Source of the DNA: Planctomycetota bacterium
Lineage (GTDB): Bacteria > Planctomycetota > Phycisphaerae > Tepidisphaerales > Tepidisphaeraceae
Assembly: GCA_039182125.1 (NCBI GenBank)
Contig: JBCDCH010000044.1
Span: 1 to 33,885 of the forward strand
DNA: 33,885 nucleotides
Direction: 5' to 3'
Part shown: in pieces, positions 7,308 through 9,167 of the stretch
Position numbering within the stretch: position 1 is the stretch's first letter
Layout: the number at the start of each line of letters is the position of its first letter
The notes under the pieces: generated by a model
What the model saw: the letters and a program-made list of their open reading frames with translations, nothing else
Databases searched by the model: none
What the model was told of the DNA's origin: nothing
Made by a program: the position numbers and the translations under genes

Positions 7308-8111
7308 ATGTCCATGGTGGAGACCGCATTACCTATGGACTTCGGAACTCTCATTGGATATGGCGTCGCCTGGGGCTCCATGCTGTTCGGCATGTGGCAC
7401 CTCACCCACTCGCTCGGGCCGTATTGGAAACCGACCGAGGTGGTTCTCGTGGGTGGCCTGGCTGTCGGCGCTGCCATTGCCTCGACCCCCCTGCACATCG
7501 TGACTGGCTCCTTCAAGTCGGCGTTGAAGATGCTCTTCAACAAGACCGCGCACATCGACCACACCATCAAGGAAATGGTCGAGTTCGCCGAGACCGCCCG
7601 CCGGGACGGCGTGCTCGCCCTCGAGCAGCAGGCCAAGGGGCATGACGATCCGTTCCTTCGCCGCGGCCTTCAACTCACCATCGACGGCACCGATCCCGAA
7701 GTCGTCAAATCGACGCTCGAACTCGAACTGGCTGCCATGGGCGAACGCCACAAACACGGCAAACACATGTGGCACACGATCGCGAAGTTCGGCCCGGGCT
7801 GTGGTTTGATCGCGTGTCTGGTCGCGCAGGTCGCGATGTTCCAGAACCTCTCCGGCGACGCGGCCGCGATCGGTGCCGCCCTCTCGGTCGCACTCACCGG
7901 CACGCTCTACGGGGCGATCATCCAGAACGTCATGGCCGGCCCGATCGCCGACAAACTCGGTGCGCTTTCCAAGGACGAACTCTTCGCCAAGGAGGTCGTC
8001 ATGCAAGGCATCCTCAGCATCCAGGCCGGCAACAACCCGCGCGTGGTGGAGATGCAGTTGCTCTCGTTCGTCAGTGCGGGCAAGCAGGGAGCTTTGGCTC
8101 AGGCGGCGTAG
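7308..8111 (+). CDS. motA: MotA-family stator protein
   Basis: MotA forms the pentameric ring of the proton- or sodium-driven stator that turns the flagellar rotor. The 267-residue protein has four membrane segments (about 14-31, 44-66, 162-181, 187-210). A cytoplasmic loop carries AETARRDGVLALE (94-106), DDPFLRRGLQLTIDGTDPE (113-131) and ELAAMGERHKHG (140-151), the most characteristic MotA region. Pro163 in KFGPGCG and Pro212 in AGPIADKL occupy the positions of the two conserved prolines near the channel. The start at 7308 has no clear ribosome-binding site; ATG 7335 (MDFGTLIGYG) is a plausible alternative. The MotB partner lies 119 bases downstream, after a large hairpin. There is no long ZorA-like C-terminal tail, so an ordinary motor stator is favoured. 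Confidence 0.9.
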   Translation: MSMVETALPMDFGTLIGYGVAWGSMLFGMWHLTHSLGPYWKPTEVVLVGGLAVGAAIASTPLHIVTGSFKSALKMLFNKTAHIDHTIKEMVEFAETARRDGVLALEQQAKGHDDPFLRRGLQLTIDGTDPEVVKSTLELELAAMGERHKHGKHMWHTIAKFGPGCGLIACLVAQVAMFQNLSGDAAAIGAALSVALTGTLYGAIIQNVMAGPIADKLGALSKDELFAKEVVMQGILSIQAGNNPRVVEMQLLSFVSAGKQGALAQAA

Positions 8112-8128: not shown

Positions 8129-8218
8129 AGGCGCTAGGCGCTAGAAGTTAGGCGCTAGGGCTTGAGTTCGAATCTTCGCGGCGGGCCCTAGCGCCTAGCC
8201 CCTAACCCCTAGCGCCTT
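8129..8218. repeat. Heptad-built long inverted repeat
   Basis: Two 33-base arms (8129-8161 and 8186-8218) face each other across a 24-base spacer and match at 28 of 33 positions. Each arm is made of 7-base units of the type GCGCTAG with variants GGGTTAG, AAGTTAG and GGGCTAG. The unit is therefore repeated directly within an arm and inverted between arms. It fills nearly all of the motA-motB gap and could fold into one long stem. No other copy was noticed in this window. Confidence 0.85.
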
Positions 8219-8230
8219 TTCCCCTCCCCC

Positions 8231-9046
8231 ATGTCTTGCAAAAAGTGCGACGAAGAAGAACTGTGTGAGGAATGTCCCGAGTGGATCTTCACGCTCGCGG
8301 ACTTGCTGATGTGCATGATGGGCTTGTTCGTGCTCATGTGGGTGCTCAAGCCCGATGGTGCCGGCGGCGCGAGCGGTGCGGGCGCGGTCGAGGCCGAGGA
8401 AGAGCGGCAAGTCGAGGTCATCGCCTCCATCCGTGAGAAGTTCGGCTACGTGCCCGACTCCGACAGCCACGATCCCATCGACCTGTTCCTGCTCAAGAAA
8501 GAGATGGAACGCCAAGCTCGCAACGGTCCCGGCGAACGGGGCAACACCAAGCGGGCGCCCGACGGCGCGGAAGGCACCGAGCACGAGGTCACCACGATTC
8601 GCCCCGGTCAGCACTACACCAAGGGCGGCGCGGTCGGGTTCGCAGCCGGCGAGCACATCGTCTCGCTTGGTGCGATCGACCTCATCGACCAGATCGCGGA
8701 GGAGATCAAAGGGCACCGCAACATCATCATGGTTCGCGGGCATGCGGCGCTTGACGATGGCGGTGACGACGATGAGAAAATGATGCTCAGCCTCCGACGG
8801 GCCGAGCAGGTTGCCAGACTCTTGGTGGAGCGTGGCGTCTCGCGTGACGTCATCCGCGTTCAGGGCAGCGGCACCTATGAACCGATCCGCCGACAGGCCT
8901 ACTTCGACGACACGCCGACGACCAACCGACGCGTCGAGATCGAAGTCACCGACCAACTCGTGCGTGACCGGCAAGCCGAGGAGTTGACCACGCCCGTCGA
9001 CGGAACCCGCCCCCTACCAAACAAACCCGCGAGTATCGAAGAATAA
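8231..9046 (+). CDS. motB: MotB-like stator protein with OmpA domain and N-terminal Cys4 motif
   Basis: MotB anchors the stator to peptidoglycan and supplies the ion-carrying aspartate. The 271-residue protein has the MotB plug-and-helix layout: W18IFTLAD24LLMCMMGLFV, with Asp24 at the position of the essential ion-binding Asp, then a flexible acidic and Gly-rich linker. The OmpA-like domain covers about 125-240 (IIMVRGHAAL, LSLRRAEQVARLLVERGV, VQGSGTYEPI, TTNRRVEIEV). The usual GHTD is GHAA here, while the NRR motif is intact. Before the helix lie Cys3, Cys6, Cys12 and Cys15, arranged CxxC-x5-CxxC, which is unusual for MotB. The ATG at 8231 follows a C-rich stretch with no Shine-Dalgarno. 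A terminator follows the stop. Pairing with motA supports the call. Confidence 0.87.
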   Translation: MSCKKCDEEELCEECPEWIFTLADLLMCMMGLFVLMWVLKPDGAGGASGAGAVEAEEERQVEVIASIREKFGYVPDSDSHDPIDLFLLKKEMERQARNGPGERGNTKRAPDGAEGTEHEVTTIRPGQHYTKGGAVGFAAGEHIVSLGAIDLIDQIAEEIKGHRNIIMVRGHAALDDGGDDDEKMMLSLRRAEQVARLLVERGVSRDVIRVQGSGTYEPIRRQAYFDDTPTTNRRVEIEVTDQLVRDRQAEELTTPVDGTRPLPNKPASIEE

Positions 9047-9085: not shown

Positions 9086-9167
9086 TGGGAGCGGAGGGAT
9101 TCGAACCCCCGAAGGCGAAGCCATCTGATTTACAGTCAGACCCGTTTGACCACTTCGGTACACTCCC
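9086..9167 (-). tRNA. tRNA-Tyr (GTA anticodon)
   Basis: Read on the minus strand, the gene starts GGGAGTG and ends CGCTCCC plus A, a 7-pair acceptor stem with one G-T wobble. The anticodon stem TCTGA/TCAGA holds the loop CTGTAAA, giving anticodon GTA for tyrosine. A long variable arm (TGGCTTCGCC), as expected for bacterial tRNA-Tyr, and the T-arm GGGGGTTCGAATCCC follow. CCA is not encoded. Confidence 0.95.

Follow-up and report, generated by a model that had tools for sequence, protein, structure and literature searches.

The locus analysed here raises the question of what the long inverted repeat between motA and motB is, and how it came to lie there. The DNA examined, referred to as the window, is a stretch of 33,885 nt from a Planctomycetota bacterium of the family Tepidisphaeraceae (GenBank assembly GCA_039182125.1, contig JBCDCH010000044.1, positions 1 to 33,885, forward strand). 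A first-pass annotation, made from the letters alone, had suggested that the repeat sets the ratio of the two proteins, serves as a processing site or belongs to a mobile intergenic repeat family.

The hairpin between motA and motB

The locus comprises the following features:

7308–8111, + strand: motA (Pfam MotA_ExbB PF01618, 1.9e-19; MotA_N PF20560, 1.2e-7)
8129–8161, + strand: left (5′) arm, A-GGCGCTA-GGCGCTA-GAAGTTA-GGCGCTA-GGGC (four 7-nt units, then GGGC)
8162–8184, no strand: spacer or loop of 23 nt, with no resemblance to the loops of other copies apparent by eye
8185–8217, + strand: right (3′) arm, GCCC-TAGCGCC-TAGCCCC-TAACCCC-TAGCGCC-T
8231–9046, + strand: motB (Pfam MotB_plug PF13677, 1.2e-5; OmpA PF00691, 6.7e-12)

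The analysis showed that the inverted repeat noticed in the first-pass annotation is real: two arms of 33 nt, built from 7-nt units and matching at 28 of 33 positions, lie between Pfam-confirmed motA and motB, although the spacer, previously given as 24 bases, measures 23 nt. The hairpin begins 17 nt past the motA stop codon and leaves 13 nt between its right arm and the motB ATG, thereby taking up most of the 119-nt gap. Its inverted-repeat score was 20.5; when the whole window was shuffled 30 times with a second-order Markov model, the highest score was 14.5. The predicted RNA fold of the hairpin had an energy of −63.1 kcal/mol (z = −5.3 relative to 200 dinucleotide shuffles). A pattern search for an intrinsic terminator (a GC stem followed by a T run) found no site. 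The hairpin is not located in a 23S rRNA helix, the sole Rfam match in the window being a tRNA. Immediately downstream of motB, a tRNA-Tyr gene (anticodon GTA; 9086–9167) is encoded on the opposite (−) strand. Slippage yields heptad phasing, and the arrays may have grown by unit slippage, as first proposed; however, a chance palindrome or slippage product limited to the motA–motB gap is extremely improbable in view of the shuffle control, the dispersed copies and the association with S23 genes described below.

Dispersed copies, S23 genes and heptad arms

A pattern search of the 4.13-Mb genome recovered about nine clear GGCGCTA-type inverted-repeat elements, whose heptads are GGCGCTA, GGAGTTA, GGGGTTA and GGGGCTA, whose inner ends are mostly GGGC/GCCC, and whose loops (20–43 nt) have no evident similarity to each other. 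An extra copy, on contig C4, forms a weak inverted repeat and is built from other heptads. The GGCGCTA-type elements adjoin gene ends, and the heptad TAG forms the stop codon of cysD and of several other genes. The first-pass annotation held that absence from relatives together with a lack of copies elsewhere would indicate a chance local event; this does not apply, because other copies exist in the genome.

One copy, on contig C25 between cysD and cysN, is longer. Its arms are 389 nt apart and enclose a gene of the S23 family (PF05635, 23S_rRNA_IVP, E = 1e-33; TIGR02436, 'four helix bundle protein', 1.8e-33), and it shares the heptad family of the motA–motB hairpin (GGCGCTA/GGGGTTA), in which the 23-nt spacer holds no S23 gene. 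The only other PF05635 gene of the genome, on contig C10, is enclosed by GAATGAC heptad arms, and at least six gene-less GAATGAC hairpins occur elsewhere in the genome. The genome thus has two heptad families and two S23 genes, one gene per family. The S23 protein has a PDB relative, 2gsc (E = 7e-20), and has been described as a homopentameric ring (PMC4990558). The own-genome S23 protein matched Avd, the accessory protein of diversity-generating retroelements, only weakly (NF033474, 6e-4, far below the cut-off), and no sign of such a retroelement was seen among the genes neighbouring the two S23 genes, which are ordinary (e.g., cysD/cysN).

For decades, S23/IVP proteins have been familiar as the products of open reading frames (ORFs) in rRNA intervening sequences (IVSs), with no known function; in Leptospira and Coxiella, 23S rRNA IVSs with an S23 ORF are bounded by complementary arms (PMC4990558). 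For 110 PF05635 loci, representing the best-scoring matches, the upstream flank was aligned to the reverse complement of the downstream flank, and the threshold was set at the 99th percentile of 418 shifted controls, so that about 1% of control flanks lay above it. The results showed that 93 of the 110 loci had flanking inverted repeats above this threshold. Flank autocorrelation peaked at lags 7 and 14, and the best unit length among the 93 loci was 7 nt in 71 and 8 nt in 18. The hosts include Planctomycetota, Bacteroidota, Clostridia, Chloroflexi, Proteobacteria, Acidobacteria and others. With weak matches included, 27 of 30 S23 loci in ten family genomes were armed, as were 14 of 15 on cyanobacterial plasmids and viral contigs; a search of phage GenBank records for S23 gave no match. 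None of 19 S23 loci without scored heptad arms was located in rRNA.

The heptad sequence varies by lineage, yet it is polar: half of the arms have AG, read inwards, in at least 75% of their heptads, and 11% of the arms have CT at this level. Heptad similarity drops fast with S23 protein divergence but remains correlated with it (r = 0.106 for pairs below 60% identity; 0 of 2000 permutations). The heptad families are numerous and lineage-limited; AGTAGGC, for example, gave 188 matches in genome G013, 167 in G010 and 0 in G000, and AGTTGCC gave 180 in G022 and none in G000. In the GGCGCTA-type family, TAG recurs every 7 nt so that no reading frame stays open, and some neighbouring genes end on a stop codon provided by an arm. 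Stop-codon design as a general rule was rejected, inward and outward stops occurring at 0.064 and 0.053 per nt in the 93 S23 loci and many families being stop-free.

On plasmid pANA02 of Anabaena sp. 90, cas6 and cas4 of a type I-D CRISPR operon are separated by an S23 gene whose arms consist of GGTGACA heptads, with a very long array upstream. In viral contigs L391 and L392, an S23 element sits between two terminase genes; the small subunit apparently gains a C-terminal extension encoded by the heptads, and the start of the large-subunit gene directly adjoins the other arm.

A second gene family was found in a similar arrangement. In one relative (G015), the motA–motB gap contains a GxxExxY gene (TIGR04256; PF13366, PD-(D/E)XK) between similar arms. 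All 30 PF13366 loci examined were flanked by inverted repeats, compared to 4 of 118 controls, and where a period was visible the units were 8–10 nt and never 7 nt (for example, ACCACAGAG-GCACAGAG). GxxExxY (PDDEXK_3) genes with arms of 8–10-nt units apparently represent a second class of small unit-repeat elements.

Mobility of the elements and candidate movers

Filled and empty sites were found for related elements. The phage gpD–gpE junction (PF02924/PF03864) is plain in close relatives (AAAGGAGTATAACCATCATG) and carries an arm–S23–arm unit in others. In plasmid pNsp_a of Nostoc sp. ATCC 53789, the 3′ end of one gene contains a nested heptad hairpin that encloses no gene and measures about 230 nt, and the homologous site in pC052_D of Nostoc sp. 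C052, with flanks about 92% identical to those of pNsp_a, is plain. In one phage contig, a gene-less hairpin replaces a gene present in its relatives; an exact-pattern search of viral contigs for gene-less AGTTGCC hairpins found none. Target-site duplication was imperfect (AAGGA-type) at the phage site, and none was clear at the Nostoc plasmid site. An unrelated phage, with a Mu-like gpT major head gene, likewise carries an S23 element immediately before the major capsid gene, the position found in the gpD–gpE phages, but with other heptads. For the motA–motB copy itself there is no filled/empty pair, because the relatives compared all belong to other genera, some without a hairpin and others with different heptads, and the gap has turned over. 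Taken together, the dispersal, the S23-bearing copies of the same heptad family and the filled and empty sites elsewhere make it most likely that the motA–motB hairpin is a short, gene-less (non-autonomous, MITE-like) and mobilisable derivative of an S23 element family. Of the options raised at first, it is thus membership of a mobile intergenic repeat family that gains support.

No transposase, recombinase or reverse transcriptase was found travelling with the heptad element, so that S23 may be cargo, or a passenger settling in heptad hairpins. It is conceivable, though unlikely, that S23 is not the mover at all and that heptad hairpins spread by slippage, hairpin copying or gene conversion, S23 genes merely preferring to insert into them. 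This would fit the greater number of gene-less than S23-bearing copies, the unrelated loops and the heptad turnover, which is fast relative to the S23 protein. However, S23 genes lie almost always within such arms (in both own-genome families and across phyla), the unit length follows the resident gene (7–8 nt for S23, 8–10 nt for GxxExxY), and arm–gene–arm units have inserted at otherwise plain sites.

The hairpin could also be a REP/BIME element moved by a Y1 tyrosine transposase (RAYT), since Y1_Tnp genes are present in all 26 family genomes and REPs, palindromes scattered between genes, are believed to be miniature transposons, non-autonomous relatives of a gene-bearing parent (REPtrons; PMC3733652), features that the hairpin family resembles. 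Such an origin is nevertheless very improbable: the hairpin has no GTAG-tagged 20–40-nt palindrome, its heptads and loops are variable, and the heptad arms go with S23 genes rather than with Y1_Tnp genes. The inverted repeats flanking 17 Y1_Tnp loci, including both own-genome genes, were non-heptad (none with a convincing period of 7), and RAYT was rejected as the mover on this ground. Reverse transcriptase was not supported as a mover either, RVT_1 being found in only 15 of the 26 family genomes, some of those lacking it being incomplete.

The motA–motB hairpin resembles MITEs in being short, gene-less and bounded by inverted repeats shared with a gene-bearing element (here the putatively autonomous S23 copy on C25), but its family differs in having no recognised transposase or clean target-site duplication, unconserved loops and arms that are heptad arrays. 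The 23S rRNA IVSs likewise have complementary, stem-forming arms around an S23-family ORF and are sporadically present (PMC4990558); by comparison of descriptions, however, they lie in rRNA helices and heptad arms are not described for them, whereas the heptad elements are found between protein-coding genes and mostly lack an ORF.

Occupancy of the motA–motB gap and a proposed mechanism

Under a fixed criterion, heptad hairpins of six types were found in the motA–motB gap of 7 of 20 relatives (GGCAGTC, AAAATGA, AGTTGCC, GGTCTGA, AGTAGGC (twice) and GAATGAT). In at least 7 of the 20, the gap is plain, 15–60 nt long and without a hairpin; additional occupants are imperfect hairpins, a nested hairpin (G025) and the GxxExxY carrier (G015). 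The nested one consists of outer GGGGAAG-type arms around inner AGTAGGC arms, and its congener G013 has AGTAGGC arms only. In G013 and G010, the heptad family at motA–motB is an S23-arm family of the same genome. Only six other hairpins in the same 338 kb were found by this criterion, about 2% of the other gaps; the enrichment at motA–motB was significant (Fisher p = 1.7e-6, own genome excluded, with about 300 other gaps assumed at one per kb). The occupancy of 7 in 20 against about 2% elsewhere suggests that the motA–motB gap is a preferred or retained site whose occupant turns over.

This recurrent filling by unrelated heptad hairpins could come about if the elements preferentially insert where operon genes are closely spaced, or if the motA/motB message is under selection. 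The stoichiometry of the motor is about 5 MotA to 2 MotB, and the hairpin may set the ratio of the two proteins, as first suggested. The hairpin may therefore have been kept or re-recruited as an RNA regulator that stabilises the end of the motA message or is cut by RNase III, giving more MotA than MotB, its mobile origin being incidental. We regard this as rather unlikely, although it would accord with the occupancy by six heptad families, the very stable RNA fold and the absence of the terminator pattern. The same pattern is expected from insertion preference, and at least seven relatives have a plain gap. Furthermore, arms within one own-genome copy were no more alike than arms across copies (p = 0.58 and 0.13; free registration); the arm comparison thus gave no support to selection for an RNA stem, and compensatory evolution of the arms was rejected.

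On the preferred reading, that of a gene-less S23-element derivative, the full-length form consists of an arm of about four to five 7-nt units, an S23/IVP four-helix-bundle gene (about 125 aa) and a second arm. Such elements occupy the junctions between genes, as a rule abutting a stop codon and ending shortly ahead of the next start, where they do least harm, some of them providing the stop of the abutting gene. The S23 protein may bind the arms, whether in RNA or in DNA form, and act in mobility alongside an enzyme of the host or of the element. In the mot mRNA, the arms would pair into a long stem, a plausible processing site by analogy with the 23S rRNA IVSs excised by RNase III (PMC4990558); a cut by RNase III here would uncouple motA from motB, possibly favouring MotA.

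Cyanobacterial STRRs are intergenic repeats of 7-nt units with many copies. Heptameric intergenic repeats have been reported in Xanthomonas (GGGAATC, with 70–75 convergent pairs forming inverted repeats) and Nostoc (GGGGAYT), no general association with mobile elements being found (PMC4692102), and TAACTGA repeats in Beggiatoaceae (PMC4679880). These repeats share with the hairpin family 7-nt units, intergenic location and high copy number, but S23 is unmentioned there and the heptad sequence of the hairpin family is different. In the published open-access papers searched, nothing connected S23 genes to heptad repeats, and the novelty of the link is provisional.

We tentatively propose, as a possibility that we hold less firmly than the origin of the hairpin itself, that S23/IVP proteins are the hallmark of a class of very small mobile elements, spread across the bacteria and lacking a classical transposase, in which a ring-shaped RNA/DNA-binding protein would recognise arms of 7-nt units, the specificities of arm and protein would co-evolve, and gene-less offspring would explain the heptamer repeats of Nostoc, Xanthomonas, Beggiatoaceae and Planctomycetota, with GxxExxY PD-(D/E)XK nucleases forming a parallel class with 8–10-nt units. 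The S23–heptad link provides a concrete hypothesis for S23/IVP proteins, namely that a widespread mobile element uses them for binding or for its mobility, and points to a common origin of several heptamer repeat families so far described independently. The motA–motB gap, with its many heptad types, amounts to a natural experiment on the fate of such insertions in operons, whether tolerated or put to use.
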